A stretch of 64,000 nucleotides of DNA from Acidobacteriota bacterium (GTDB lineage: Bacteria > Acidobacteriota > Terriglobia > Versatilivoradales > Versatilivoraceae), in NCBI GenBank assembly GCA_028875575.1, contig JAPPDF010000035.1, forward strand, positions 1 through 64,000, in the 5' to 3' direction. Position numbers and translations under genes: made by a program. The notes beneath the pieces are model-generated. The model searched no databases. It worked only from the letters and a program-made list of their open reading frames with translations, and was not told the DNA's origin. Of the stretch, positions 434-38,122 are shown piece by piece; positions within the stretch are counted from its first letter, which is position 1, and every line of letters begins with the position of its first letter.

Positions 434-2158
434 ATGAAACGCCGAACTTTCTTAAGAACCGTTGGCGCCGCGGCACCCGGAGCTTTGGCCACACCTCTGG
501 TCACTGCGGCGGCAGCCGGTCCGTCACCCTCCAAGGACTCCCGGCGTTCCGGGGATCCGCGTGTCTTCTTCTTCGACGACGGGCGCCACGCCGCCGACCT
601 CTACTGCTTCGAACCCCCGGTGACCCCGTCCGATCACGCCTTCATCGTAGACCAACTCGCCAGCAGCGGCGTGGACGCCTTTGTCTATTTCGCCGGCGTC
701 GAAGGGGGCACCATGCTCTATGACAGCAAGGTGGCTCAGATGTGGGGAGCGGAGGTCAAGCAATGGACTCACTATGTCTGGTATCGGGCGGGGCGGATAT
801 TGAAGCAGCTCGTCGAGGACGGCCACGATCCCCTCAAGATCCTGGTGGACCGCTGTCACCAGCAGGGAATTCTGATGATCGCCAGTACCTGGGTGAGCCT
901 GCAGGGAGGGACCCGGGAAGCAAACGAAGGCCTGGGCCGATGGTCGGCCTTCGCCATGGACAACCCGCGGTTCCACGTGGGAGATGATCCCGATCCCCGG
1001 GCCAAGGACATCAACAAGACGCGCTTCAATTTCATGCACAAGGCGGTGCGGGAGGAACGGTTTCCGGTTTTCGAGGAGTTGCTTTCCCGCTATGAAACCG
1101 ATGGCATCGAGCTGAATCTGACCTCGTCCACGCCCTTCTGCCGTTTCGACCAGGCCGGGGAGCTGGCCCCGGTGATGACCCGATGGATCCGGGAACTGCG
1201 CAAGGTGGCTGACAAGGCCCAGCAGGCGCAAGGGCGGCGAAAGCGCATCTACGCCCGCGTCCCGGCTCACCCGGACGCCTGGAAGCTGGTGGGCTACGAG
1301 GTCCCCACCTGGATTTCGGAGAACCTGGTGGACGGTCTCTTCTGCGAGGGCAGCTACACCGAGGACGAGGGCATCGTGCAGGACGTGGATTGCACCCAGG
1401 TGGTGAAGCTCACCCGGGGGACCGGAACCCGTGCCTACTTTTCCATGCACAATGGGCTGGGCCGGCAGTTTGCCCGATGGGCCACCCCCGAAATGGTCTG
1501 GGCCGGCGCCGCCACCGCCTACGATCAGGGAGTGGACGGCGTCGCCATGGCCGACCACCTCTGGACCCCCCAGGGATGGCCCTGGACGGCCCAGGAATAC
1601 GATACCCTGCGCCTGCTGCCCCACCCGGAACTGTTGGCCACTGCCGACAAGCTCTACATGGTTCGGACCCGCAAGGAACGGGACACCTCCATGGACTGGC
1701 TGTCCGACAGGACCCAGGGTCTACCCCAGGAGATTGCCGAAGGGGCGTCGGCCGAGGTTTCCTTTCCAATGGCCGATGACATCGAGCACTGGCGAAAGCT
1801 GGGACGGGTTCGCTCGGTGGTCCTGAGGGTGCGCCTCGGAGGCATCATCCCGACCATCGATCAGGTCAGGGTCGAGTTCAATGGCCAGGTACTCCCCGAT
1901 TCCATCCTGCAGAAGGTGGACATGACCTATCGGCTGGTGGGCCAGGATTCCCTCTCCCATTCCATCGGACCCTACGGGTACGGCTACGACTACCATCTGG
2001 GTCCGGAGTTCACGCCCACGAAGGGACGCAACACCCTGAAGGTCACCGTCCTGAAGCGGGATCGCGACATCAAGGGGAACCTCTCCCTGGACCGCGTCGA
2101 CTGCAGAGTGGCCTATCGTCGCCACCGCCACTTCGAAGAGCGGCCCATTGAGTATTGA
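434..2158 (+). CDS. Tat-exported TIM-barrel-like protein, possible glycoside hydrolase
   Basis: The 574-residue protein starts at the ATG at 434, which places a twin-arginine signal (RRTFLRTVG) at the N-terminus; the frame is open upstream to 299 but that extension looks non-coding. After the signal come Asp/His-rich strands (FFFDDGRHAAD) and a segment DGIELNLTSS near residue 225, typical of a barrel strand in TIM-barrel glycosidase-like proteins. The last roughly 130 residues look like a beta-sandwich (FNGQVLPDS, GRNTLKVTVLKRD). A paralogue, also 574 residues, lies at 34111-35835 and shares these landmarks. No substrate can be assigned. The neighbouring sugar kinase on the opposite strand fits a carbohydrate context. 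Confidence 0.6.
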   Translation: MKRRTFLRTVGAAAPGALATPLVTAAAAGPSPSKDSRRSGDPRVFFFDDGRHAADLYCFEPPVTPSDHAFIVDQLASSGVDAFVYFAGVEGGTMLYDSKVAQMWGAEVKQWTHYVWYRAGRILKQLVEDGHDPLKILVDRCHQQGILMIASTWVSLQGGTREANEGLGRWSAFAMDNPRFHVGDDPDPRAKDINKTRFNFMHKAVREERFPVFEELLSRYETDGIELNLTSSTPFCRFDQAGELAPVMTRWIRELRKVADKAQQAQGRRKRIYARVPAHPDAWKLVGYEVPTWISENLVDGLFCEGSYTEDEGIVQDVDCTQVVKLTRGTGTRAYFSMHNGLGRQFARWATPEMVWAGAATAYDQGVDGVAMADHLWTPQGWPWTAQEYDTLRLLPHPELLATADKLYMVRTRKERDTSMDWLSDRTQGLPQEIAEGASAEVSFPMADDIEHWRKLGRVRSVVLRVRLGGIIPTIDQVRVEFNGQVLPDSILQKVDMTYRLVGQDSLSHSIGPYGYGYDYHLGPEFTPTKGRNTLKVTVLKRDRDIKGNLSLDRVDCRVAYRRHRHFEERPIEY

Positions 2159-2190: not shown

Positions 2191-3705
2191 TCAGCCGGCC
2201 AGGGTGTGGTAGACCGGTTGGAGTTGTTGCTGGATCTCCCGGTAGCGCTGGAAGAGCGCGATGTAGCCTCGGGCCCGCTCCGGATCGGGTGAAACGGTTT
2301 CCAGCTCCTGCCGGGACCCGGCCAGCGCCTGGGAGACATCCGGGTAGAGGCCGATGCCCACCAGTCCCAGCAGCGCCGCGCCGTATGCGGAATCCGTCAC
2401 CCGCGAAACCTGCAGGGGTTTCCCCAGCACGTCGCAGACGATCCGGGTCCACAGCCTGCCCGCCGTACCGCCGCCCACCACAGTGATGGTTCCCCCCGGG
2501 CCGCCCAGGTCATCCAGCACGCCCATCGCGTCCCGCAGGGAGAAGGCCGTGCCCTCGTAGGCGGCGCGAACGAAGTGCTCGGGGCAATGGCCGAAGGTGG
2601 CTCCGGAAAAGCTGGCCCGCAGCCGGCCGTCCCAGTAGGGGCAGCGCTCGCCCGAAAGGTAGGGGTGGAAGAACAGCCCCTCGGCTCCCTGCGGAACGGT
2701 TTCCACATCCGGATCCCACTCCTGGAAGGTTCCCGGCCGGCCGGAGCCGACGCTCCGGAACACCCACTGGAGGGCTGAAGTGCAGGAGTTGGTGCCGGCC
2801 TGAGAGTACCAGAGGGGAGACACGGGATGAGGGTAGCTGATGAGCCCGGGGTGAGGACGAGCCTCCTCCAGCACCAGGTGAATTCCTCCCGCCGTGGCCA
2901 GCCTCAGCAGGCAGTCGCCGGGCCGCACCACCCCGGCTCCGTAGGTCTCAGCCGCACTGTCCAGGGTCCCGTTGATCACCGGCACCCCGGAAGGGATTCC
3001 CAGCGCCTCGGCCGCAGCCGCCGCCAGCGAGCCGACCTTGGCCGTGGAAGGGAGCACCCGGGGCAGCACACCGGACGTCAGCCCCAGTGGCTCCAGCAAA
3101 GGCTCGGACCAACCTCCAGTATGAGCGTCCAGGAGCATGGAGGACAGGGCGGTGGCGGGATCGGTCGTCCAGCGGCCCGTGAGCCACTGGGACAGGTAAT
3201 CCTTGGAAAGGACTACCCGGCGGATCTTGGACCACACCTCCGGTTCCTGCCGTCGCACCCACAGTAGCTGAGGCAGGGTCCACGTGGGAGAGACGCTGTT
3301 GTGAGACAACCTGAAGATCTCCTCGCCACGCTGAGACTTCAGCTCCTCCACCTCGTTCAGGGAGCGCTGGTCATACCAGAGGATGGCGTTTCTGAGGGAA
3401 TTTCCGCCGGTATCCAGCAGCACCGGAATGTGGGCGGCGCTGGAAAGGCAGATACCTCCGACCTGATCGGGTGTGACAGGGCTTTCCAAGAAAAGCCGGC
3501 GGGTAGCCTCGATAGCCGCGGGCACCCAGTGGTCGGGATCCTGTTCGGCCCAGCCGGCCCGCGGGGTGAGGGTGGGATAGCCGGCGCTACGCGCCCCCAG
3601 GTGCCGGCCGGAAGCGTCAACCGCGCACACCTTGCAGGACGAGGTTCCCAGGTCGATCCCCAACAGGTAGGGAGGGCGACCGGGCTGGACAGTGTCGGTG
3701 CTCAT
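2191..3705 (-). CDS. FGGY-family carbohydrate kinase (xylulokinase-like)
   Basis: This 504-residue protein has the length and landmarks of FGGY kinases, which phosphorylate a sugar or polyol using ATP in the cytoplasm. The N-terminal phosphate-binding loop reads GIDLGTSSCK at about residues 15-24, and the C-terminal ATP-binding segment reads VVGGGTAGRLW near residue 410. GWAEQDPDHW near residue 55 is also typical of the XylB branch. The start is an ATG at 3705 with a GAGGAC ribosome-binding site. It converges with the secreted protein at 434 and is followed on the same strand by no other kinase-pathway gene. Xylulose is the commonest substrate of close relatives, but the family is broad. Confidence 0.8.
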   Translation of the reverse strand: MSTDTVQPGRPPYLLGIDLGTSSCKVCAVDASGRHLGARSAGYPTLTPRAGWAEQDPDHWVPAAIEATRRLFLESPVTPDQVGGICLSSAAHIPVLLDTGGNSLRNAILWYDQRSLNEVEELKSQRGEEIFRLSHNSVSPTWTLPQLLWVRRQEPEVWSKIRRVVLSKDYLSQWLTGRWTTDPATALSSMLLDAHTGGWSEPLLEPLGLTSGVLPRVLPSTAKVGSLAAAAAEALGIPSGVPVINGTLDSAAETYGAGVVRPGDCLLRLATAGGIHLVLEEARPHPGLISYPHPVSPLWYSQAGTNSCTSALQWVFRSVGSGRPGTFQEWDPDVETVPQGAEGLFFHPYLSGERCPYWDGRLRASFSGATFGHCPEHFVRAAYEGTAFSLRDAMGVLDDLGGPGGTITVVGGGTAGRLWTRIVCDVLGKPLQVSRVTDSAYGAALLGLVGIGLYPDVSQALAGSRQELETVSPDPERARGYIALFQRYREIQQQLQPVYHTLAG

Positions 3706-3789: not shown

Positions 3790-4725
3790 CTACCGGACCG
3801 CCCCCGCCCTTTCCACCCGGGTCAGGCCGTGCTGCTCCAGGAATTCAGTGATGATGGTGTGGGCCCGCAGTGTCTCTTCGGGACTGAAGGGCCCGTGGGG
3901 TCCCTCGGGAATGGTCACCAGGCGATTGGGGACGCCGGCCTCGGTCAGGGCCCCGTGCAACCGAACGGCCTGCTGGTAGGGGACCAGCGGATCGTTCTCG
4001 CCGTGAACCGTCAGGATGGGGGGCAGGCCCGGGCGGACGTAGGTCAGCGGAGAGACCCTTTTGGCCAGCGACTCCCTGTCCGGCCGCACTCCCAGCCAAC
4101 GCAGCGCGTACCGCTGAATATTGTCTCCCTGGATCAGATCCAGCACGTCGGTGATGCCGTACCAGTTGACGATGGCCGCCACCTTGGGCTCTCCCTTCCC
4201 CAGGCAGCGGTAGTCCAGTCCGGCCTCACTCGTCAGCATGCCGGTGGTCAGGGCCAGGTGCCCCCCGGCCGAATGGCCGGAGACCACGATGCGGTCGGGA
4301 TCCAGATTGTACCGGCCGGCATTGTCCACAACCCACCGCAGGGCGCAGCGGCAGTCCTCCACCGCCCCCGGCGCCAGGGAAACTCCGCTCAGCCGGTACT
4401 CGACGTTCACCACCGCCCACCCCATCTCCAGGTAGGGCAGAAGCCGCAGTATGGGCTCGTCCTTGTCGCCGGTGTACCAGCCGCCACCGTGAAAGTAGAC
4501 CAGCGTGGGCGCGGGCTCGCTCAGACCGGTCGGCTGGTACAGATCCAGCTCGGCCCGCCAGTTGCTGGCGGTGAGATAAGTGATGTCCGGCTGCACCCGG
4601 TAGTTCTTGAATGCGGTGGCCGCCCAGGCGGCCCTGGGGGAAAGCTGCCCCCAGGCCGGCGAGGCCCAGAGCGCTGCCAGAAGCATTGCCGGAACGCCGG
4701 CTCTCAGAAAAATTCTCCGAAACAC
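3790..4725 (-). CDS. secreted alpha/beta hydrolase (BD-FAE-like esterase)
   Basis: The start is set at a GTG (4725) because GGAGGAGAG lies directly upstream and the resulting protein begins with a clean signal peptide (FLRAGVPAMLLAALWASPAWG). The 311-residue product has the oxyanion motif HGGGW at 79-83, nucleophile elbow GHSAGG (Ser152), acid HGEND (Asp245) and a C-terminal His277 (GPHGPF), so the full Ser-Asp-His triad is present. The family contains acetyl-xylan esterases and carboxylesterases acting on acylated carbohydrates or small esters. It is 84 bp upstream of the FGGY kinase on the same strand in reverse order of transcription, so it could be cotranscribed. The frame stays open to 4818, but that extension lacks a signal sequence. 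Confidence 0.8.
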   Translation of the reverse strand: MFRRIFLRAGVPAMLLAALWASPAWGQLSPRAAWAATAFKNYRVQPDITYLTASNWRAELDLYQPTGLSEPAPTLVYFHGGGWYTGDKDEPILRLLPYLEMGWAVVNVEYRLSGVSLAPGAVEDCRCALRWVVDNAGRYNLDPDRIVVSGHSAGGHLALTTGMLTSEAGLDYRCLGKGEPKVAAIVNWYGITDVLDLIQGDNIQRYALRWLGVRPDRESLAKRVSPLTYVRPGLPPILTVHGENDPLVPYQQAVRLHGALTEAGVPNRLVTIPEGPHGPFSPEETLRAHTIITEFLEQHGLTRVERAGAVR

Positions 4726-4931
4726 CTCTCCTCCTCCCTCGACAAAATCGGAAAACCACACTGAACCCTGGACGAAGTCAACGTCCTTCAGGCCCCCTTC
4801 AACCTCGGTTCCGCGCACCGCCAGCCACGACGGTCAGAGCACCGTTGTCTGTCCATGCCCAACTCGGTTGGTGCTTTGCAACCAGGGCTTACCCTAAAAC
4901 GGTTCTAACCAATCGCGGAGTATTGATGCGT

Positions 4932-5401: not shown

Positions 5402-6844
5402 CTACACCAGAATGTCGTGCACCACGTTGCCATACACGTCGGTGAGGCGCATGTCGCGGCTGCTGAAGTGGTAGGTGAGCCTGGTGTGGTCCAGACCCAG
5501 CAGATGGAGGATGGTGGCATGCAGGTCATGGACATGCACCTTGTTCTCGACCGCGTAGTAGCCATACTCGTCGGTGGCTCCATAGATCGTTCCGGGCTTG
5601 ACGCCACCCCCGGCCAACCACATGGTGAAGCCGAAGGGATTGTGGTCCCGGCCCACCTGGGAGAGGTCGCCGCTATCCGGGGTCTGGGCCGTGGGCGTCC
5701 TCCCGAACTCGCCGCCCCAGACGACCAGTGTCTCATCCAGCAACCCGCGAGCCTTGAGGTCTTTCAAGAGCCCGGCAATGGGCTTGTCGGTCGCCTTGGC
5801 GTTGATGCGGTGGCGCTCTTCCAGACGGATGTGCTGGTCCCAGCGGTCGATCCGCCGCTGGGGGCTGAGGCATTCGATGAAGCGGACACCACGCTCCACC
5901 AGGCGGCGGGCCAGCAGACACTCCCGGCCGAATTCCTCGGTTTCGGGCTCATCCAGTCCGTAGAGCTTCCGGGTCGCTTCCGATTCGTCGCCGAGGTCCA
6001 GCAGCTCCGGGACCGCCGACTGCATGCGGAAGGCCAGTTCGTAGTTGGCGATGGTGGCCTCCAACTGGCTGCCTGCGCCGAAGCGGTCCACCACCCCGGC
6101 ATTCAGCTTGCGGATGAGGTCCAGCTTGTCGAGCTGCAGCTCCGGGGCAGCCTCGCGCGGCCGGATGTCCGCGATCGGGTGGCGCCCCTTGCGAAAGAGG
6201 GTTCCCTGGTAGGAGGCCGGCAAAAAGCCGCTGCCGAACAGGTCCAGGCCTCCGGGCGGAATCATTTCGCTTTCCAGCACAATGAAACCGGGGAGGTTGT
6301 CCGACTCGCTTCCCAAGCCGTAGGTTACCCAGGACCCCAGGCTGGGCCGGCCCTGAAAGCCGGTCCCGGAGTGCATGAAGTAGTTGGCGGCGGTGTGCTC
6401 GGAGTGATCGGCCACCATGGACCGAACGAAGGTCATGTCATCCACGCAAGTGGCCAGATGGGGAAAGAGCTCGCTGACCGCGGCGCCCGAGTGGCCGTAG
6501 CGTTTGAAGTTGTAAGGCGATCCCAGCACCATTCGGCTGATCTGGAAAACAGTGGCCGGCGTCTCCATCCGGATGGGTTGGCCGCTCTCCTTCTGCAGCC
6601 TGGGCTTGGGGTCGAAGGTGTCCATCTGCGACGGCCCCCCGTCCATGAAGAGAAAGATCACCGACTTGGCCTTGGGCGGGTGGTGAGTGACTCGAGGAGC
6701 CAGCGGAGAGGTCGAGGTTCCGGCCGCCAGGCCCTGCTTCTCGGCCAGGAGGCAGGACAGGGCCAGCCCGCCGAAGCCGTTGGCGCACCGCCACAGCATT
6801 TCGCGGCGGGTGATCGCAGGCGAGGATGGATTTGGCCAATGCAT
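5402..6844 (-). CDS. DUF1501 domain protein, Tat-exported
   Basis: The 480-residue protein has a twin-arginine signal (TRREMLWRCANGFGG) and the DUF1501 layout: a metal-dependent sulfatase/alkaline-phosphatase-like fold with FLFMDGGPSQMDTFDPKP near residue 62 and a C-terminal GGEFGRTPTAQ and GRDHNPFGFTMWLAGGGVKPG. Proteins of this family are nearly always encoded after a DUF1549/DUF1553 cytochrome protein, exactly as here: the upstream gene ends 9 bp before this start, so they form one operon. The biochemical role is unknown. Involvement in degradation of complex carbohydrate or other secreted-enzyme systems is suggested for the family but not shown. Confidence 0.85.
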   Translation of the reverse strand: MHWPNPSSPAITRREMLWRCANGFGGLALSCLLAEKQGLAAGTSTSPLAPRVTHHPPKAKSVIFLFMDGGPSQMDTFDPKPRLQKESGQPIRMETPATVFQISRMVLGSPYNFKRYGHSGAAVSELFPHLATCVDDMTFVRSMVADHSEHTAANYFMHSGTGFQGRPSLGSWVTYGLGSESDNLPGFIVLESEMIPPGGLDLFGSGFLPASYQGTLFRKGRHPIADIRPREAAPELQLDKLDLIRKLNAGVVDRFGAGSQLEATIANYELAFRMQSAVPELLDLGDESEATRKLYGLDEPETEEFGRECLLARRLVERGVRFIECLSPQRRIDRWDQHIRLEERHRINAKATDKPIAGLLKDLKARGLLDETLVVWGGEFGRTPTAQTPDSGDLSQVGRDHNPFGFTMWLAGGGVKPGTIYGATDEYGYYAVENKVHVHDLHATILHLLGLDHTRLTYHFSSRDMRLTDVYGNVVHDILV

Positions 6845-6853
6845 GTCAGTCCC

Positions 6854-9800
6854 TCAACGCAGATAGATGAATTCAGCCGAGTTTATCAAGGCGTGCCCCA
6901 GATCGGCCCACACCCGCTGTTCCACGCTCTCCCCGTTTTTCTCCTTCTCGGCCAGTCTGCGGTAGCGGTCCTCCGCTGATGCCGCGAACTGCAGCAAGTC
7001 TTTCAACTCTCGCGGCTCCGGGCGTCGTCCGTAGGCTTCCAGGACCATGCGCGCGGCCCGCCGGCCGGGGTCGGTCTCCTCCACGACCATGCGCCGGGCC
7101 CAGGCCTGAGCTTCTCCCGCAATGAACTCGTTGTTCAGCATCATGAGAGCCTGGGAGGGAACGGTGGAGACTCCTCTGCGCCCGATGGTCGAAATGGGCG
7201 GCGGATAGTCGAAAGCCAGGAACAGGGGCGTCAGGAAGTTGCGGCGGACCTGAACGTAAAGGCTGCGCCGGCCGTTCCCGTCGAGCGGCCCCGACTTGGG
7301 CTTGCCGCGGCCGTCCTGGTAGGGGCTGATGTGGGGCGGCACGCTGGGACCGAACAACTGCCGATCCAGATTGCCGCTCACGGCCAGCACGGAATCGCGG
7401 ACCGCCTCGGCTTCCAGCCTGCGTACGGAGACGTGATGGAGAAGCCGGTTGTCGGGATCGAGCTGCATCGCCCGGGCGTCCCTCCCACCGGACATCCGAT
7501 AGGTGTTGCTCAGCAGAATCAGGCGCTGGACGGCCTTGACCGACCACCCTTCCCCCATGAAGCGATGGGCCAGATAATCCAGCAGCTCGGGATGGCTGGG
7601 CCGGTCGCCCTGCTTGCCGAAATTGTCCACCGAGCGCACCAGGCCTTCCCCGAAGTGGTGTTTCCAGATGCGATTGACCATCACCCGAGCCGTCAGAGGA
7701 TTCCGCGGGTCGACCAGCCGGTCGGCCAACTGCAGCCGGCCGCTTCCTTCCAGGATGGGGGGCTGATCCTTCCCTGCCAGGATCTGCAGGAAGCGGCGCG
7801 GCACTTCCCGGCCCAGGTTCTTGTGATCCCCTCTCAGGTGGACGCGCACATTGCGTGGATCCCTGTCCTGGCTGCTCATGGCGAATCGGGAGGCCGGCAC
7901 CCGGTCGTCCAGAACCTGGCGTTGACCCTGCATCCGTGCCACCGCATCCCGCTCTTCCCGCCACAGGAGAGCGCCGAGGTCTTCCAGGCGGCCGCCGGGA
8001 CTGAGAGAGGCCAGCAGCCAGCGGTGGCCGGGAGCCAATGGGGCCGGGGCGCCCAGGGCTTCCAGGAACAGGTCCCGGTAGGTTCGGGCCAGAGCATCCA
8101 GTGAGGAGGGGTTCCCCGAGACGATCCTTTGCAGCAGGTCCCGGTGGGGTGCATCCAGGTAGAGGGGAGGTTCCTTGGAGTTGGAAAAGACGATCTTGTC
8201 CACAACGATATGCCCGCCGGCACTGCGGTCCAGGATCTCGAAATGGCAGATTCGTCCCACCTGAATGGTCATGCGGGAGGTCTTCCACCGCAGTCGACTG
8301 CCCTGCGGAACGTAGGTCGAGCTTCTCACTCCGTCCGCAATCAGGCTTAGGGCCAGGGCAGGGAAGGGTTGGCCGCCGGAAGACTCCTCCGGTTGGCTGC
8401 CGGCCAGCCTCACATGCAGGTAGATGCCATGATCCCGGTAGTCCCTGGGCAGCTCGGGCAGGGTGAACTTGCGGGACGTCAGGCTGCCCATGAATCGATC
8501 GGATCCAGCTCCAAAGGAGTTGGCCAGGGACTGGCCCTGAAAGTCGCGGAGTGGTTGGTTGGACGCAATCCCCCGCGCCGGTCCGGTCCCGAAGGCCTGT
8601 CCCCGCACGGTCCATCCCTCGAAGTCCGGTTTGCCGAAATCCTCGAAGAGCACATCGACTCGCTCCGGACCTGCGGCCTTGTCATTCCGATCCGGATGAA
8701 ACTTCCCGCCCAATTGGCCGCGAACGGCCTCCATCCCCTCGGCAAAGGAGCCGAAACGGCGGCTGGCCAGTCCGTCGATCAGGGCGGCCAGGGGGTAGAA
8801 CAGATCCTCCGGCTCCCCGCAGGCCTGCCGGAGGGTCTCCACCCAGGCTTGCAACAGGCCGGCATCCAACAGACGCCGGCCGGCCAGCTCAGCCACCGCG
8901 GAGGGCTCGGCCGAGGTCCGAGGGGAGGCCAGCTCGGCCGCCGCCAGCAAGTAGGGCTCGATCTGGCGGGCCATGCTCCAGCGTGCGGGTTTCAGCAGAG
9001 CCTCCATACCGGAGTTCCGATCCTGGATCTGCCGCCGGAGGGAGGCAATCTCTTGCCGCCGGGCGGCCGAATCGATGACCGCCTGGGCGAAATCGGTGCT
9101 GTGCAGAACCCCGGCCAAGGCATAGTAGTCGGCGGTGGGAATGGGATCGAACTTGTGGTCGTGGCAGCGGGCGCAGGCTACTGTCAAGCCCAGGAAGGCC
9201 TTGGAGAGAACGTCGATCTGGTTGTCGACTTCGTCGGCCCGGGCCTTGACGGAGTCAATGGCGCCGTTGAGGCGTTCCCCCAACCAGAAAAAACTGGTGC
9301 TGACCGGAGATTCCCAGTGGATCCCGTCCGGCCCCAAGCGCTTTTCCGGCAAAAGGTCTCCGGCCAGGTGCTCGCGAACGAAGTGGTCATAGGGAACGTC
9401 CTGGTTGAAGGCCCGAACGACGGCGTCCCGGTACCGCCAGACATCGGCCTTGGTGTGGTCGAACTCGTGACCGTTGGTTTCGGCAAAGCTGACCAGATCC
9501 AGCCAATGGCGTCCCCAGCGCTCACCGTAGTGGGGAGAGGAGAGCAACCGGTCCACGACCTTCCGAAAGCTCTCGGGGGAATGATCGGCCTCGAACCGTT
9601 CGACCTCGCTCGCCGAGGGCGGCAGGCCGGTCAGACCGAAGGTCACCCGGCGGAGCCAGCTTCGCTTGTCGGCGGGCGGGGCCGGCGTCAGTCCCTTGGC
9701 CTCCAGCCTGGAGAGCACGAAGGTGTCGACGGGAGAGGAAACCCAGCGGCTATCTTCGACCGCCGGAAGCCGGGGGGGCTCGATGGGCCGGAAAGACCAG

Positions 9801-10237
9801 AATTGGCGGCCTGCTTCCCAGTCGATACCTCCACCCTGGTCGGTCGAGGTCGATTCGGCTTGGGGAAAGAAGGCCCCCGACTTCACCCACTGAACCAGGT
9901 CGGCGATTTCCCGATCGCTCAGCCGGCCCGTGGGAGGCATCTTGAGATCTGCGTCCTCGAAGAAGACGGCCCGGATCAGCAAGCTCTCTTCCGGACTGCC
10001 GGGAGTAACGGACGGGCCTCGGCTTCCGCCTGCCAGCATGGCATCGGCCGAATCGAGCCTTAACCCTCCCATGGGACTGGAGGTTTCGCCGCTGTGGCAG
10101 GCATGGCAGCGTTCGACCAGCAGCGGCCGGATCCGCTTCTCGAAAAACTCGGCCTGGCCGGAATCCGACGCGCCCAGCCCGACCGGCGCCGAAAAAACAA
10201 CCAGCCAGGCGGCGATACTGAGCCGATGGAACGACAT
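6854..10237 (-). CDS. cytochrome c-DUF1549-DUF1553 protein (planctomycete type)
   Basis: The start is placed at an ATG at 10237 with GGAGAA upstream, giving a signal peptide (FHRLSIAAWLVVFSAPVGLG) and 1127 residues. A c-type haem site CHACH near residue 46 lies in a PSCyt1-like domain (RPLLVERCHACHSG, DLVQWVKSGAFFP). DUF1549 follows (FVLSRLEAKGL, HYGERWGRHWLDLV, CARCHDHKFDPI), then an insert of about 400 residues with a lectin/jelly-roll look, then DUF1553 (NPLTARVMVNRIWKHHFG, SNTYRMSG). CARCH provides a second possible haem site. The protein is probably exported and pairs with the DUF1501 gene downstream. A redox role is likely; the substrate is unknown. Confidence 0.85.
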   Translation of the reverse strand: MSFHRLSIAAWLVVFSAPVGLGASDSGQAEFFEKRIRPLLVERCHACHSGETSSPMGGLRLDSADAMLAGGSRGPSVTPGSPEESLLIRAVFFEDADLKMPPTGRLSDREIADLVQWVKSGAFFPQAESTSTDQGGGIDWEAGRQFWSFRPIEPPRLPAVEDSRWVSSPVDTFVLSRLEAKGLTPAPPADKRSWLRRVTFGLTGLPPSASEVERFEADHSPESFRKVVDRLLSSPHYGERWGRHWLDLVSFAETNGHEFDHTKADVWRYRDAVVRAFNQDVPYDHFVREHLAGDLLPEKRLGPDGIHWESPVSTSFFWLGERLNGAIDSVKARADEVDNQIDVLSKAFLGLTVACARCHDHKFDPIPTADYYALAGVLHSTDFAQAVIDSAARRQEIASLRRQIQDRNSGMEALLKPARWSMARQIEPYLLAAAELASPRTSAEPSAVAELAGRRLLDAGLLQAWVETLRQACGEPEDLFYPLAALIDGLASRRFGSFAEGMEAVRGQLGGKFHPDRNDKAAGPERVDVLFEDFGKPDFEGWTVRGQAFGTGPARGIASNQPLRDFQGQSLANSFGAGSDRFMGSLTSRKFTLPELPRDYRDHGIYLHVRLAGSQPEESSGGQPFPALALSLIADGVRSSTYVPQGSRLRWKTSRMTIQVGRICHFEILDRSAGGHIVVDKIVFSNSKEPPLYLDAPHRDLLQRIVSGNPSSLDALARTYRDLFLEALGAPAPLAPGHRWLLASLSPGGRLEDLGALLWREERDAVARMQGQRQVLDDRVPASRFAMSSQDRDPRNVRVHLRGDHKNLGREVPRRFLQILAGKDQPPILEGSGRLQLADRLVDPRNPLTARVMVNRIWKHHFGEGLVRSVDNFGKQGDRPSHPELLDYLAHRFMGEGWSVKAVQRLILLSNTYRMSGGRDARAMQLDPDNRLLHHVSVRRLEAEAVRDSVLAVSGNLDRQLFGPSVPPHISPYQDGRGKPKSGPLDGNGRRSLYVQVRRNFLTPLFLAFDYPPPISTIGRRGVSTVPSQALMMLNNEFIAGEAQAWARRMVVEETDPGRRAARMVLEAYGRRPEPRELKDLLQFAASAEDRYRRLAEKEKNGESVEQRVWADLGHALINSAEFIYLR

Positions 10238-30954: not shown

Positions 30955-32484
30955 TCACCGACCGGGATAGCGCCGAAGCGTCATCTCAGGCTCAATGGTC
31001 TCGGGCATGGCATCCAGCGGGTAAACCGGCCTGCCAATGCGCCGGAAGGGCAGCATGCGCATATCGGCGGGCGTGGGTCCGGGAACGGCCACCACGAAGA
31101 AGTCCTTCATGATGCCGGCGTAGCCCACCCGGAAGTTCATCATGTTCTTGACGCAGACAAACTTGGCCTGGCGGGGATCCAGTCCCAGCGAACGGTACTG
31201 CTCGTCGGCCCATTCGTAGGTGGGACGGCTCGTGACCAGCAACTGGAGGTTGCCGGTCTGCAGGACCAGCGAGCGCCCCATGGAGACTTCGGTGCCTCCC
31301 AGGATGCCGCCCCGGTAACGGAAGCGGCCCTCCGACTTCCGCCGCAGCATCGCCCCGAGCGCCAGGGGCTTGCCCCACTGGGGGTCCAGGCGGTGTCCCA
31401 ACTCCACCTGGAACCGGCTGCCGGGCTCCCGATGCCAGCAGTCGCCAACGGCTTGGGGATCGACCGCCATGGCCAGGCAGGACTCCTCGACGCCGAGCCC
31501 GATCAGCTCTCGGACCAGCGCGATGCCGTCGCCGGCGGCGCCGCCCCCGGTGGTATCGGCAGTGTCCAGCAGGAGGACGGGGCCTCCCTGAATGCGGCGT
31601 CCGCGCTCCACGGCATCGGCCACGGTCAGTGGCTCGACTCGATAGGCCTCGCGCTCGTTCCAGTGGCGAAGGGCCAGCCGGCGGGCCAACTCCCCGGCCA
31701 GGGCCTCATCGCCCTCGGTTATCACCAGCGAGCTGCAACCCATTTCCGGAACGTCGATATAGGCGCCCAGGTTGAAGACCGAGGCCGAGAGCACCTGCGG
31801 CCGCGTCTGCTCCATCCGGTCCGCTTCACGCCGAAGCCGGGCAAAGGGGCCGTCCCCCTCGGTGGAGGCGTTGAAGCTGGTCAGAATCAGGGGCAAGCGG
31901 GCCAGCGCCATGGCCGGGCGGCTCTGACCTTTGACGGCCCGCAGCAACAGGCCGGCCGCGTGTTGACCTGTCTGGAAGGCGTCCCGGTGAGGATAGGGAT
32001 GGTAACCGACCACACTATCCGCCGACTGAACCATGGACCGGGTCAGGTTGCCATGGAGGTCGAGCGTGAGGGCCAGGGGAACCCGGGGGCCGATGATATC
32101 GCGGAGGGCTCCGGCCAGGTCCCCCTCGGGGTCGTCCAGGTCCTGCACCCCCATGGAGCCGTGACAGGAGAGGAGGATGCCGTGAACGGGCCGATTCCGG
32201 CGCAACCCTTCAAGCAGCAGCCGCTTCAGGGAGCGGTAGCATTCCGCCGAAAGCGGATTGCCGGAGTTGGCCCGGGCAGCCACCAGCGGGACCACCTCGA
32301 CCTGCTCCTCGGACTGGAGGATGGAAAGAAAACCGCCGACCTCGGTGTCCGACCGGCCCAGGTCCAGGAGTTCGGGGCCCTCCAGCAGGTAGCCGGTGGT
32401 GCGAAAGAAGTCCAGCCCGGCCAGACCCGTCACGAAATGGTTGGACTCGGATGAAATCTGAGCGACAGCGATTCGCAGGCTCAT
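30955..32484 (-). CDS. M81-family metallopeptidase (MlrC-like)
   Basis: The 509-residue protein matches the two-domain MlrC family: IAVAQISSESNHF at the start, LLSCHGSMGVQDLDDPEG near residue 105, metal positions in LALTLDLHGNLT near 137 and VVGYHPYPHRD near 157, and the C-terminal domain beginning VLLLDTADTTGGGAAGDG. MlrC cleaves a linearised microcystin product, but most homologues have other, unknown substrates. Its ATG immediately follows the TAG of the SDR gene, so it is the last gene of a four-gene operon. Confidence 0.82.
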   Translation of the reverse strand: MSLRIAVAQISSESNHFVTGLAGLDFFRTTGYLLEGPELLDLGRSDTEVGGFLSILQSEEQVEVVPLVAARANSGNPLSAECYRSLKRLLLEGLRRNRPVHGILLSCHGSMGVQDLDDPEGDLAGALRDIIGPRVPLALTLDLHGNLTRSMVQSADSVVGYHPYPHRDAFQTGQHAAGLLLRAVKGQSRPAMALARLPLILTSFNASTEGDGPFARLRREADRMEQTRPQVLSASVFNLGAYIDVPEMGCSSLVITEGDEALAGELARRLALRHWNEREAYRVEPLTVADAVERGRRIQGGPVLLLDTADTTGGGAAGDGIALVRELIGLGVEESCLAMAVDPQAVGDCWHREPGSRFQVELGHRLDPQWGKPLALGAMLRRKSEGRFRYRGGILGGTEVSMGRSLVLQTGNLQLLVTSRPTYEWADEQYRSLGLDPRQAKFVCVKNMMNFRVGYAGIMKDFFVVAVPGPTPADMRMLPFRRIGRPVYPLDAMPETIEPEMTLRRYPGR

Positions 32485-33267
32485 CTATCCCATCCACAAT
32501 CCACCGTTGATCTCGATGACCTGTCCGGTAATGAACGAAGAGGCCGCTCCTGCCAGGAAGAGCACCGCCCCGGCGCATTCGTCGGGGTGGCCGTTTCGGC
32601 CCAGAGGTGTCTGGCGGGCAAGGGCTTCCAGCGCTTCAGGGGTATTCAGGCGGTCATGAATATCGGTCAGAATGACACCCGGCGAAATGGTATTCACTCG
32701 CACCCGGGGCGCCAGTTCCTTGGCGAGACTCCGAGTCAGGCTGAGAATTGCCCCCTTGGCTGCCGCATAGATGGCAACGCGCCCGGCGCCACCGGTGTGA
32801 GCGGAAATCGAGGATGTGTTGATGATGGAGGGATCGGAACCTCTTTGCAGCAGGGGAATGGATTCTCGAGTCACGTAGAGCGTGCTGTGCAGGTTCACCC
32901 TTAAGACCGTTTCGATCCAGTCGTCTTCGGCCTGCTGCAGCAGGCTTCGGCTCACCATGTCCCCGGCGTTGTTGACCAGAACGTCCAGCCCGTCCCAGCG
33001 CCGACTCACCTGCTCCAGCAGATGCCGGGCTCCGGCCGAGCCCTCGAGATCCGCCTGTACAGTCCATCCCTTTCCCCCGGCTCGCCTGATCCGATCGACC
33101 GTGTCTTCTGCCCCCTGTTTGGACCGACGGTAGTGCACGGCCACCTGGGCACCGCTGCCGGCCAGTGCTAGAGCCACCGCTTGTCCGATGCCTCGACCGG
33201 CTCCGGTCACCAGGGCCCGCTTCCCCTCCAGTCCGAACTGACGGCTCAAGTAGTCAGGCATGCTCAT
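32485..33267 (-). CDS. SDR-family oxidoreductase
   Basis: The 260-residue protein has the classical short-chain dehydrogenase signatures: TGAGRGIGQAVALAL at about residues 21-35, NNAGDM near residue 99, active-site Ser in TSSISA and YxxxK in YAAAK near residue 165. INGGLWMG ends the protein. In this operon, after a lactonase-type amidohydrolase, it most likely oxidises a sugar to its lactone, by analogy with the fucose and rhamnose oxidative pathways, but FabG-like ketoreductases look the same. Its ATG overlaps the upstream stop (ATGA). Confidence 0.8.
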   Translation of the reverse strand: MSMPDYLSRQFGLEGKRALVTGAGRGIGQAVALALAGSGAQVAVHYRRSKQGAEDTVDRIRRAGGKGWTVQADLEGSAGARHLLEQVSRRWDGLDVLVNNAGDMVSRSLLQQAEDDWIETVLRVNLHSTLYVTRESIPLLQRGSDPSIINTSSISAHTGGAGRVAIYAAAKGAILSLTRSLAKELAPRVRVNTISPGVILTDIHDRLNTPEALEALARQTPLGRNGHPDECAGAVLFLAGAASSFITGQVIEINGGLWMG

Positions 33268-34154
33268 TCATCCTCGAGCCCATAGAACCTGGCCGCATTC
33301 CGTCCAAACACCGCCGACTCGACCGATGGACTCCAACCGGAAGCCAGCGTGGTGCGCACCAGGTCGACCGCCTCTTCATAGCTGCTGCCGTTCAGGCAAA
33401 TCGGCCAGTCGCTGCCAAACATGACCCGCTCCACGCCGAAGCAACCCAGCACGTGATCCACGAAGGGTTGCGCCCGCCTGGCCAGGTCCGGAGCCGGCCC
33501 CCCGTGGGGGGCCATCCCGGAAAGCTTGCAGTAAAGACCCCGATAGCACGCGATCTCGGCCATATGGTTTTGCCAGGGTTGCAGTTTGCGGTCCGTGATG
33601 TCGGGCTTGGCCAGATGGTCGACCACGGCCCGCAACCCCGGGATGCGCTCCAGCAATTCAATGACGACGGGCAGATGCCTGGGCCAGACGATCAGGTCGA
33701 GAGGAACCTGGAGGTCAGCGATACTCTTGAGACTGTCGAGGACCCGTGGCCGCAGCAGCCACCGGTCGTCTTCCAGAAACTCCACTGCCGGCCGGACCCC
33801 GACAAATCCCGATCGCTTCCTGTAGGTGTCCAACTGCCGCGGGAAGTCCCGGCTCTCCAGGTCCAGCCACCCGACCACGCCCGCGATGAAGGAGTGCTCT
33901 TGCGCCAGGGTCAGCAGGAATTCGGTTTCCTCCAGGCTCGGGGAAGCCTGAACGGCCACGGTGAGATCGATTCGGTGGCGCTCGAGTGCCGGCGCCAGGT
34001 CCTGCGGCAAATAGTCGCGGAACAGCACCGGATTGTTTCGATCCATCCAGGGGTAGTCGAAGCCGTCGGCCAGCCAGAAGTGTTGGTGGCTGTCGATCCG
34101 CGAGCGGGGGCTAACGCCTGGAGTTGCGTCCCGTTTTTTCATAGGGGCCGACAT
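33264..34154 (-). CDS. amidohydrolase, sugar-lactonase type (PF04909)
   Basis: The 296-residue protein has SRIDSHQHFWLADGFDYPWM near residues 17-37, with the HxH metal pair, RAVVDHLAKPDI near 180 and the catalytic Asp in VMFGSDWPIC near 248. This pattern is that of L-fucono- and L-rhamnono-lactonases in the amidohydrolase superfamily. The start could instead be the ATG at 34142. Either start overlaps the end of the TIM-barrel-like gene, and its own stop overlaps the SDR start, so coupling is tight. Confidence 0.8.
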   Translation of the reverse strand: MSAPMKKRDATPGVSPRSRIDSHQHFWLADGFDYPWMDRNNPVLFRDYLPQDLAPALERHRIDLTVAVQASPSLEETEFLLTLAQEHSFIAGVVGWLDLESRDFPRQLDTYRKRSGFVGVRPAVEFLEDDRWLLRPRVLDSLKSIADLQVPLDLIVWPRHLPVVIELLERIPGLRAVVDHLAKPDITDRKLQPWQNHMAEIACYRGLYCKLSGMAPHGGPAPDLARRAQPFVDHVLGCFGVERVMFGSDWPICLNGSSYEEAVDLVRTTLASGWSPSVESAVFGRNAARFYGLEDE

Positions 34155-35835
34155 CTGGATCGTCGTCCACCCAGAAGTTTCTGCTGATCAGATACTTGGT
34201 CTCGAGTTCGATGTCGCCGAGCCGAACGTGGCCGGTAGCGAGGTCCGGGTCCCGATGGGTGAGGGTCACCTCGAGCAGATTGTTCCCCTGCCTGGGCCAG
34301 TATTGACGATCCAGCTTGTAGACAAACCAGTAGCCTCCGATCCGCTTGGCGGGCGCGTACATCTTGTACATCTGGTTGATCTTTTTCAACGACGAATCCG
34401 GCAGGGTCTTGCCGTTGAGGCTGATGGCCAGCCGTTCCCGCTCGTTGACCCCGATGCGCAGACGCAACAGGACCTCCCGGACAATGCCCTCCCGGTCCCA
34501 GTGCATCAGGTCGTCCGCGATGGTGAACTCGACCCTGCTGGTCTGGCCGGGTTTCAGCTCGACCGGCAAGGTCGGTTGCGCCTCGGAGGCCGGGATGCCC
34601 CGGGTCCCCCCGTAGTCCCCCTTGGTCATCACCGTATAGAACTTGTCCTTGGGGGCCATGATGTCGGGATGGTCGATCTCCCGCAACTGGGCGTAGAAAT
34701 CGGCCCGATAGGGCCAGTTGGCTCCCGCGAACCACTGGGCCAGGTAAAGCCCGTCGACGCCCTGCTGCCAGTAATTGCAAGCGGTGGCCCGCGTCATTTC
34801 GATGGTGCCGCTCAGCAGGCGGTCGGAGCTGACAATGCTGTTGATGGTGGCGAAGGCGCGGCAGTCGGACCCCTTGACGGCTTCCACCAGCGGCCGGAAA
34901 TCGGCCATGGTGTCCAGCCGCCCCCAATAGGTCTCCCCCACGAGAACGTCGACGATACCTTGCCGGATCCATTCCCGGTAGTCGAGTCCCAGGGAATAGG
35001 CCTGGTCGATGTCGTTGGGAACGCGCAGCACCAGTTCCCGTTCCGGGTCGTCGGCCTTCAGTGCCTCATAGACCCTCTTGAGCCAGGCGGTCATGAGGGG
35101 GCGGCCTGCCGCCACTTCGCTGGGGTGAAAGAAGTAGGGTCCCGGACTGATGTAGTTGAGCTGGAGCTCGAGGCCGTCGATGGGGTAATTCCGGGCCACC
35201 TCTTCAATCAGCGCCAAGCGCTCACTGCGTACCTCCTCGTGCTTGAAATCCAGATTGGATGCCCCCGGGAAATTGGGTAGATCTCCCTTGGCTCCAATCT
35301 CCAGGTGCCTGTTTTCAAGGCGAAACTTCGAGGTGCGCACATCCTCCTCGATGGAGGCGCCGCGCTGTCCCTGATTGAGCAACAGGGTGGGGTAGAGCAG
35401 CATCCCCTTGGCATGGGCTCGTTCGCAGCAGACCCCCAGCGGATCGACGCCCTGGTCCAGGGCCGCACGCACGTTCTGCCCGGCGCGGTGGAAGACGGCG
35501 TGGGTCCACTTGTCCACCGGGTCCCCCCACACCTCGCTCACCTTGGTGTCGTGAAAGACGGTGCGCCCGTCGCCCAGGCCCAGACAGACCGCCTCCACCG
35601 AAGTACCCACCAACTCGTCCACCGGCGCCTGGAACTGGCGCTTGGACATGGGCGGCTCGTAGTGGTAGACCAGATCGTGCCGGCTGTCGTTGAAGTAGAG
35701 GATGCGCGGCTTTCTTCTCCCCGAACTGGTGCGCTTGGCCACAGCGACGGCTGGGCCGGCCGTGGCAGCGGAAGCCGCCAGGCTGGACACCAGGCCGGCA
35801 CCCAGGGTGCGCTTCACGAAGTCTCTTCTGATCAT
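34111..35835 (-). CDS. Tat-exported TIM-barrel-like protein, paralogue of 434-2158
   Basis: Starting at ATG 35835 behind GGAGAACTCC, the 574-residue protein has a twin-arginine signal (IRRDFVKRTLGAG). It shares with the gene at 434 the elements RILYFNDSRHD, WTHAVFHRAG, DGLELQLNYIS, MTAWLKR, LNGKTLPDS and NNLLEVTLTHRD, and the same length. A barrel domain of about 400 residues is followed by a beta-rich C-terminal domain. It is first in an operon with a lactonase, SDR and MlrC-like gene, which supports a role in releasing or processing a sugar derivative outside the cytoplasm. Enzyme class is not established. Confidence 0.6.
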   Translation of the reverse strand: MIRRDFVKRTLGAGLVSSLAASAATAGPAVAVAKRTSSGRRKPRILYFNDSRHDLVYHYEPPMSKRQFQAPVDELVGTSVEAVCLGLGDGRTVFHDTKVSEVWGDPVDKWTHAVFHRAGQNVRAALDQGVDPLGVCCERAHAKGMLLYPTLLLNQGQRGASIEEDVRTSKFRLENRHLEIGAKGDLPNFPGASNLDFKHEEVRSERLALIEEVARNYPIDGLELQLNYISPGPYFFHPSEVAAGRPLMTAWLKRVYEALKADDPERELVLRVPNDIDQAYSLGLDYREWIRQGIVDVLVGETYWGRLDTMADFRPLVEAVKGSDCRAFATINSIVSSDRLLSGTIEMTRATACNYWQQGVDGLYLAQWFAGANWPYRADFYAQLREIDHPDIMAPKDKFYTVMTKGDYGGTRGIPASEAQPTLPVELKPGQTSRVEFTIADDLMHWDREGIVREVLLRLRIGVNERERLAISLNGKTLPDSSLKKINQMYKMYAPAKRIGGYWFVYKLDRQYWPRQGNNLLEVTLTHRDPDLATGHVRLGDIELETKYLISRNFWVDDDPDVGPYEKTGRNSRR

Positions 35836-36634: not shown

Positions 36635-37894
36635 TCAGTGCACGATCCTGCCGCTCTTGCGCCACGGCTTCCAGCGCACGGCCTGCAGCGTGTGACCTTC
36701 GCTCCCGGGCCGGCCATTCCTTCCCAGGGCGCCATCGCCCGCAACGGTGATGATGGTCCCGTCACTGCCGGCTACCGCACTGCCGTAGCCGTGGCCCTTC
36801 ATCAGGATGTAGACCTCCGGCTCCCAGGACCTGCCCCGGTTCCAACTGATCCTGGCCCGAACATCGCCCCCTTTATGGTAGGGGTAGCGGTTTTCGTAGA
36901 CGGCCACGATCCCTCCCCCGGGAAGAGGAGCCAGGGTGCCGTGAGCCTGGCCGAAGGTCCGGGTCAAGGGCCTGAAGTGGCGCCAGGTGCGTCCGCCGTC
37001 GTTGGAATTGGCCAACTGGATGGTCTTGCCGCCCAGCCGGGAATTGGGAACGCCTCGTATGGCTGCCAGCACCCGCAGCCCCCCCAGGGAAACCAGGCCG
37101 GTTTCGGCGGCGGTTCCCCGGATCAGGGTCGGCTCTCCCCAGGTGAGCCCCTGGTCCCGGCTGCGCAAAAACACTTCAGCGAAGCGATCCGAGTGCTCCC
37201 CCTCCAACCCGGGATTGTAGGCGTCCAGGGCCGCCAGCAGGGTTCCGTCTCCCAGGGCGATGATGGAGTTGCCGTCGCCGGTCAGCGCTCGATAGCCGGG
37301 AGGCGGGCTGAGCGGATGGCTGCTCTCCCAGTGCTCTCCGCCGTCCTTGGAACGGGAGACCACCAGGGGACGCAGTTCGTGCTTGCCGGCAGTGACCGCC
37401 GGATTTTCCACCAGCTCGGACATCACGGGCGGTAGACCGGTGGCGGCGTGGCAGACCAGGATGTAGGGTCCGGCCGCGCCGAAGGCCTGGGCGGCAACCG
37501 GTTCGCCCCCCGTGTCGGGCAACCCCTCAAGCCGCCTGCCGGTCCAGCTCCTGCCGTCATCATCCGACCGGTAGAGATAGGTGCCGAAGCCAGCGTAGAG
37601 GGTTCCATCCTCGGTCCTGACCACCCGGCCGTCGAGCCGCCAGGTGGAGCCTGGCACTGGCAGGCGCAGGCGTTGCGCCGGCAGGGTGCCCAGCTCCCGG
37701 TGCACCGGCCTGAAATCCCCCTCGCCCGGCATGTTGGTTCCGGGCCTCAGATAGGGCTCGGCCTCGACCACGCGGATCGCATAATCCAGGGAAGGGGCGG
37801 CCCGGCTGGTGAGCGGGTTTTCCTGGGCGGTCAGGCTACCGGGCAATAGAATGGCGGCAGCCAGGAAAAAGGGGACTAGCGTTCGAGAAAACAT
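36635..37894 (-). CDS. sialidase-like Asp-box beta-propeller protein
   Basis: The start is taken at ATG 37894, which opens on a signal peptide (FSRTLVPFFLAAAILLPGSLTAQ); 37906 is an alternative. The 419-residue protein carries at least four Asp-box repeats: SDDDGRSWTG, SKDGGEHWES, SRDQGLTWGE and SNDGGRTWRH, plus SWNRGRSWEP. This is a sialidase/BNR six-bladed propeller. The arginine triad of true sialidases cannot be confirmed, so another glycan or lectin role is possible. Confidence 0.78.
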   Translation of the reverse strand: MFSRTLVPFFLAAAILLPGSLTAQENPLTSRAAPSLDYAIRVVEAEPYLRPGTNMPGEGDFRPVHRELGTLPAQRLRLPVPGSTWRLDGRVVRTEDGTLYAGFGTYLYRSDDDGRSWTGRRLEGLPDTGGEPVAAQAFGAAGPYILVCHAATGLPPVMSELVENPAVTAGKHELRPLVVSRSKDGGEHWESSHPLSPPPGYRALTGDGNSIIALGDGTLLAALDAYNPGLEGEHSDRFAEVFLRSRDQGLTWGEPTLIRGTAAETGLVSLGGLRVLAAIRGVPNSRLGGKTIQLANSNDGGRTWRHFRPLTRTFGQAHGTLAPLPGGGIVAVYENRYPYHKGGDVRARISWNRGRSWEPEVYILMKGHGYGSAVAGSDGTIITVAGDGALGRNGRPGSEGHTLQAVRWKPWRKSGRIVH

Positions 37895-38122
37895 GTGGGC
37901 ACCCATGAGGGAACGGGCAATGGAAACAGAAGGAATCAAGGCCATCAAAGCCTAGCACAGTCTGTACCCACGAGCCTTTTAAATGGCGCTGGCCAAGGCA
38001 CTGAAGATAAACTGCCATTCACCGTTACAATGGCGCCCCGGCGCCCCGGTGGGAAGTGCGGGTTCAGACGGACAATTGCCGGTCCCGCTCAAATCAGGCG
38101 CTTCGCCGACAAGGAGAGAAAA

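Follow-up and report, generated by a model that had tools for sequence, protein, structure and literature searches.

GH156-like proteins of a large Acidobacteriota paralogue family include a clade with a remodelled active-site motif

The window considered here, a stretch of 64,000 nucleotides from an Acidobacteriota bacterium of the family Versatilivoraceae, carries two genes about 32 kb apart whose products share a length of 574 residues and little of their sequence, and the question raised by this locus is what such proteins are and whether they act on extracellular carbohydrate. The initial annotation had described both as proteins with a Tat signal, a barrel with a DGxEL strand and a C-terminal beta domain, and in these respects it holds. 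Both genes begin with ATG, and the N-termini, MKRRTFLRTVG... in the first window gene (P0001) and MIRRDFVKRTLG... in gene 2, carry twin-arginine leaders as judged by pattern only; the genome encodes TatC (PF00902, E 4.3e-66). The DGxEL element appears as TDGIEL in P0001 and as IDGLEL in gene 2, and the wide divergence between the two proteins is borne out by an identity of 32% in a local alignment and 30% in the family alignment. AlphaFold2 models (mean pLDDT 86.3 for P0001 and 83.1 for gene 2) show in both cases the strand and helix alternation of a TIM barrel followed by a beta-sandwich (Table 1). The common length is a coincidence, because the starts chosen for other family members, which were partly picked by the twin-arginine pattern and are unsure in a few cases, give 520, 566, 571, 573, 576 and 586 residues, among others.

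Table 1. Features of the two GH156-like genes and their neighbours in the window
Feature	Position	Strand	Remarks
P0001, GH156-like protein, D-x-R-H clade	434..2158	+	First window gene; 574 aa
P0001 twin-arginine (Tat-type) leader	434..523	+	Residues 1-30; sequence pattern only
P0001 TIM barrel	563..1648	+	Residues about 44-405; AlphaFold2 model aligned to GH156 structures
P0001 D49-G-R51-H52 motif	578..589	+	Asp14-equivalent base with clade-typical Arg and His
P0001 C-terminal beta-sandwich	1721..2116	+	Residues about 430-561; model and structure alignment
FGGY sugar kinase, xylulokinase-like	2191..3705	-	356 bits, below cut-off 380; matched beside P0001 orthologues
BD-FAE-type esterase	3790..4818	-	Matched close to homologues with as little as 51% identity to P0001 (L041)
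DUF1501 protein	5402..6799	-	
PSCyt1/PSCyt2/PSD1 (DUF1549/DUF1553) protein	6854..10237	-	
M81/MlrC-type protein	30955..32484	-	Near gene 2 in 4/4 genus relatives
Short-chain dehydrogenase (SDR)	32485..33267	-	
Amidohydro_2 protein, L-fucono-1,5-lactonase-like	33264..34142	-	207 bits, below cut-off 400; overlaps end of gene 2
Gene 2, second GH156-like protein	34111..35835	-	574 aa; same clade, different subclade
Gene 2 D50-S-R52-H53 motif	35677..35688	-	
BNR_2 (Asp-box, sialidase-like) protein	36635..37906	-	

The initial annotation had recognised no named glycoside hydrolase family, and this part of it has to be given up. Searched alone, P0001 found one solved sequence at E <= 1, the GH156 sialidase EnvSia156 (6rzd, E 3.7e-11), and a profile built from 38 paralogues matched the same entry with an E value of 9.5e-71 over chain residues 9-487 of 511. 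The comparison of predicted structures with glycoside hydrolase families that had been proposed at the outset placed EnvSia156 first for both models: residues 41-561 of the P0001 model aligned to it with a Z score of 36.5 (468 residues, 2.7 A, 20% identity) and the gene 2 model with a Z score of 37.3 (461 residues, 2.7 A, 22% identity), the match spanning barrel and sandwich in each, and Foldseek matched the GH156 fold with an E value of 5.1e-33. The six-bladed beta-propeller of GH33 type is absent, both models consisting of a barrel and a sandwich, and NCBIfam gave no match for P0001 or for gene 2, which was searched there as a 554-residue piece. Both window proteins are thus GH156-like by sequence and by two-domain fold. 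They resemble EnvSia156 (6rzd, 6s00, 6s04) in the nearly whole-length profile match, the domain order, the base Asp14, the buried Arg246 and His17; they differ from it in the twin-arginine leader, in the low identity over the aligned structure, in the replacement of Ser16 by arginine and in the residues considered next.

The residue roles described for EnvSia156 are those of Asp14 as base and His134 as acid, of a carboxylate clamp made up of Arg129, Arg202 and Asn346, of contacts to O8 from Ser16 and Asn15, and of a buried Arg246 (PMC6811678); the sections of that report covered here describe no role for His17. In 41 rows from the window's genome, residues were located by counting fixed, ungapped distances from conserved anchor positions, the EnvSia156 numbering having been verified at 17 residues, all of which agreed. 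At positions 14, 16, 17, 129, 134, 202 and 346, P0001 has Asp49, Arg51, His52, Trp153, Gly158, Ser231 and Asp374, and gene 2 has Asp50, Arg52, His53, Leu152, Gln157, Tyr228 and Gln367. The base position is therefore kept, while the general acid is not matched in either protein and all three carboxylate ligands are replaced in both. The residue paired with Arg129 in P0001 depends on the alignment (Gln with a gap near the site in phmmer, Trp in MAFFT and by the anchor offsets), but Arg129 and His134 are missing from P0001 whichever is used. The initial annotation had taken confident placement in a known, non-catalytic family as the result that would speak against an enzyme; GH156 is a catalytic family, of which these proteins keep the base and have lost the general acid.

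The same replacements run through a clade of 16 proteins in this genome, to which both window proteins belong and in which Asp14 is kept in 16/16, Arg129 in 3/16, His134 in 1/16, and Arg202 and Asn346 in none; in the other 25 rows Arg129 is found in all, His134 in 16, Arg202 in 24 and Asn346 in 22. Thirteen paralogues retain the complete set of Asp14, Arg129, His134, Arg202 and Asn346, a 13/13 count that is no test because these canonical rows were defined by the very residues counted. Where barrel strand 1 ends, directly beside the base, the clade carries a motif of its own, D-x-R-H: arginine occupies the Ser16 position in 15/16 members and in 0/25 other rows, and histidine the His17 position in 16/16 and in 2/25, this signature having been no criterion in choosing the 16 rows. 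The His52 position is the sole histidine present in every clade member, and buried Arg246 (R275 in P0001, R271 in gene 2) is kept in 15/16. With 21 relatives added (n = 37), which, like 7 added to the intact set, were picked after their residues had been seen, Asp is found in 37/37, Arg in 36/37, His in 37/37, Arg246 in 30/37, and two aromatic residues aligned near the pocket loops, W382 and Y57, in 35/37 each. The motif is not strictly private to the clade: EnvSia156 itself has His17, and two intact-motif loci of a distant genus, g60 (L070 and L072), have arginine at position 16 with no histidine at 17. Several g60 members of the clade have Thr or Lys in place of Arg246.

In a tree of 42 rows including EnvSia156, rooted at the midpoint only and with two fragments left out, the 16 clade members lie on one side of a branch with support of 98/96. 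A second remodelled group was also observed: the five among the 25 other rows in which Asp stands where the general acid, His134, would be group together with support of 100/100, keep Arg129, Arg202 and Asn346, and share an RxNxxD motif (L011:4641-6395, L012:4806-6512, L010:4505-6271, L029:3402-5168 and L036:4415-6397).

P0001 itself is under purifying selection. Against its orthologues L037, L038 and L039, to which it is 96.5, 94.1 and 91.1% identical, dN/dS is 0.103, 0.126 and 0.190 (Nei-Gojobori, calculated for P0001 only). Such low values argue against decay of P0001, and they fit binding as well as catalysis.

The initial annotation had reported a single paralogue 32 kb away; the second copy is real, but the genome holds about forty copies, and with that the idea of a simple pair of paralogues was rejected. 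A search with P0001 matched 47 places in its own genome, and the profile matched 46 at E <= 1e-5 (44 when the limit is 1e-15), the 46 comprising 38 of full length (E <= 7.6e-126), 2 fragments at contig ends and 6 that are partial or divergent. The fetched regions together with the window contain 43 family ORFs, including 3 divergent ones and 2 fragments, and the family alignment (A1) leaves out 5 of the 43. Copy numbers here are matched places, so that a gene interrupted by a contig boundary or broken into two stretches is counted double, and the assemblies of most relatives are fragmented. With full counts at E <= 1e-15, four relatives of the genus have 44 (G001), 45 (G003), 43 (G004) and 44 (G006) matched places, and two more, also counted in full, have 47 (G432) and 41 (G433), G432 having contig coordinates in common with G005 and G433 with G002; the seven genomes of this genus, the window's own included, thus have 41-47 each. 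The count of 44 in G001, a record of one contig (OX638355.1), makes a binning artefact unlikely. A stretch of under 16 kb at G000:C9:18968-34642 (L021) contains five family genes, and five matches are likewise clustered in G001 at 1617216-1635561.

Beyond the genus, members of the same family have 42 (G007), 29 (G008) and 5 (G010) matched places. A search of relatives at 1e-10 scored up to 35 candidates per genome, which makes its counts lower bounds: it gave at least 1 for G009 and, among the candidates scored, 0 for G011, and among those scored for a further 29 genomes of the class it gave one or two in 3 genomes and none in 26. The whole-genome scans covered Acidobacteriota. Across the phylum, at least 19 of 396 genomes, including the window's own, have a match at 1e-15, again a lower bound as three candidates were scored per genome. 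Genus g60, of the distant Acidobacteriota family f28, has 22, 28, 24 and 25 matched places in four genomes (G062, G086, G332 and G356), and both the intact and the D-x-R-H types are present there. For nine named loci related to P0001, the record titles read Acidobacteria, Acidobacteriota or Terriglobia in seven cases, Candidatus Versatilivorator in one and Acidimicrobiia in one; the last (L041, VFZK01000004.1) shares contig coordinates with G007, of the same family as the window genome, and is probably mislabelled. The ALOHA and K_Offshore_80m records, which from their names we take to be water samples, belong to genomes with 29 and 42 matched places; the expansion is therefore not confined to sponges, and a sponge-only trait was rejected. 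SB0661 and RHO1 are presumably sponge samples. Names of the jk18x form have been used for MAGs from sponges (Ircinia) (PMC9531527).

The gene neighbourhoods point to no single sugar. The kinase, the esterase, the DUF1501 protein and the PSCyt/PSD1 protein beside P0001 were all matched in L037, L038 and L039, and in L041 (51% identity to P0001) PSD1, DUF1501, esterase and GH156-like genes are consecutive on one strand. Gene 2 is followed by the Amidohydro_2, SDR and MlrC genes, of which MlrC alone is constant in four genus relatives, the SDR being matched in two (G003 and G006) and the lactonase-like gene in one (G006). A hint of a neutral 6-deoxy sugar, which might be drawn from the fuconolactonase-like gene and the dehydrogenase, is weak because both are missing in some relatives; this stretch (32485-34142) varies among close relatives as if its genes were gained and lost singly. 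Within 3 kb of the 43 family members, the nine labelled types of window neighbour are mixed, and none of them distinguishes the D-x-R-H clade from the intact one. NanE had no match in the genome and NanA none over the cut-off (best 165 against 382 bits), leaving the standard route for Neu5Ac undetected there. BNR_2 proteins are expanded as well, with 41 matches in this genome and 81 in G007, as against 0-5 in nine same-class genomes searched outside the family.

A plain GH156 sialidase is rejected on the residues. The reading that we favour, with some confidence though well short of certainty, is that both genes encode exported exoglycosidases of the inverting type, remodelled to act on a non-ulosonic sugar. 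The enzyme would fold in the cytoplasm, be exported by the Tat route and bind the terminal sugar of an extracellular glycan, with Asp49 or Asp50 at the kept position of the catalytic base and D-x-R-H as a new acquisition. With the clamp for the C1 carboxylate lost, this sugar would not be an ulosonic acid, and the loss of the sialic-acid grip together with a nearly fixed new motif suggests that the window proteins probably cut a different one; the family copies may be split between several sugars or linkages. By homology to EnvSia156, in which Ser16 binds O8, Arg51 and His52 would lie in the pocket. The idea of an uncharacterised enzyme family for extracellular carbohydrate, put forward in the initial annotation, thus fares well for the subfamily, as the best-supported reading, and fails for the family, which has a named relative. 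Several observations weigh against this exoglycosidase reading: three of the 16 clade members keep Arg129, the motif is not perfectly private, Arg246 has been exchanged in several g60 members, the neighbourhoods are mixed and the general acid His134 is replaced in both proteins, so that by analogy with the H134A variant of EnvSia156, which showed no detected activity on sialyl-lactose and still cut the activated 4MU substrate (PMC6811678), the proteins may be inactive or may only bind. A bolder form, possible yet rather unlikely in our estimation, would make the D-x-R-H clade the founder of a glycosidase family of its own, with charge recognition shifted to the other side of the sugar ring and His52 taking part in catalysis. 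The Ser16 position, which binds the glycerol side chain in EnvSia156, would correspond to the exocyclic carbon of a hexose, and arginine there would suit the removal of terminal uronic acids or 6-sulfated sugars.

Three other explanations have to be weighed. That the clade is no longer catalytic, its barrel having become a secreted carbohydrate-binding protein, we hold to be unlikely, though it deserves attention: the near-complete loss of His134, Arg202 and Asn346 would be expected of it, the purifying selection on P0001 is equally compatible with it, and the second domain is present, for which a possible CBM-like role has been suggested in EnvSia156 (PMC6811678). The base Asp kept throughout the clade, the almost fixed Arg-His beside it and the conservation of W382 and Y57 in the partly post hoc set of 37 rows speak for a working pocket instead. 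A different chemistry on a sugar polymer, either lytic transglycosylation as in Cwp19 or endo-hydrolysis of GHL10 type, appears to us improbable. The functional region of Cwp19 from Clostridioides difficile (PDB 5oq2) is the second-best fold (Z 27.5 for P0001 and 29.4 for gene 2), with a profile E value of 2.5e-16, and the 554-residue piece of gene 2 passes the Pfam GHL10 cut-off (PF02638; 34.1 against 27.9 bits). However, GH156 leads by about 8-9 Z units and over both domains, whereas Cwp19 matches the barrel only, at 12-15% identity and as a likeness of fold, with no match for the C-terminal sandwich; PgaB is a weaker fold match still, with a Z score of about 21 for both models. The GHL10 and GHL6 models, both of hypothetical glycosyl hydrolases, cover only part of the barrel, and P0001, weakly similar to GHL6 (PF14871), falls below both cut-offs (15.3 bits for GHL10).

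Least probable in our judgement is that the proteins have remained hydrolases of sialic acid or of other ulosonic acids and rely on a different set of residues. Their kinship to GH156, the 13 paralogues of the same genome with an intact constellation and the expansion of sialidase-like BNR_2 proteins are in keeping with such an activity; the loss of all three C1-carboxylate ligands in both proteins, one of them replaced by an acidic residue in P0001 (D374), and the NanE and NanA results are not.

Earlier work presents GH156 as a small family whose members are inverting sialidases (PMC6254351). Environmental GH156 enzymes of Planctomycetota likely target plant glycans, according to a 2022 paper cited in PMC11929135, so altered targets in the family have already been suspected. 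GH33 sialidases are enriched in sponge MAGs, and Acidobacteriae are among the GH-rich lineages (PMC8163846, in the main text of which GH156 does not appear). In the portions covered of the literature on GH156, sponge and Acidobacteriota sialidases (PMC6811678, PMC6254351, PMC10570557, PMC11994032 and PMC11929135), we found no description of the expansion or of the D-x-R-H clade.

In summary, one large branch of this family has rebuilt its active site in a largely uniform way, and annotating the D-x-R-H clade as sialidases is probably wrong. This bears on the diet of these Acidobacteriota, at least two of which come from sponges and for which the standard sialic-acid route was not found. If the proteins are active, intact and rebuilt pockets within one genome would provide a natural series in which to follow how a glycosidase comes to act on another sugar.
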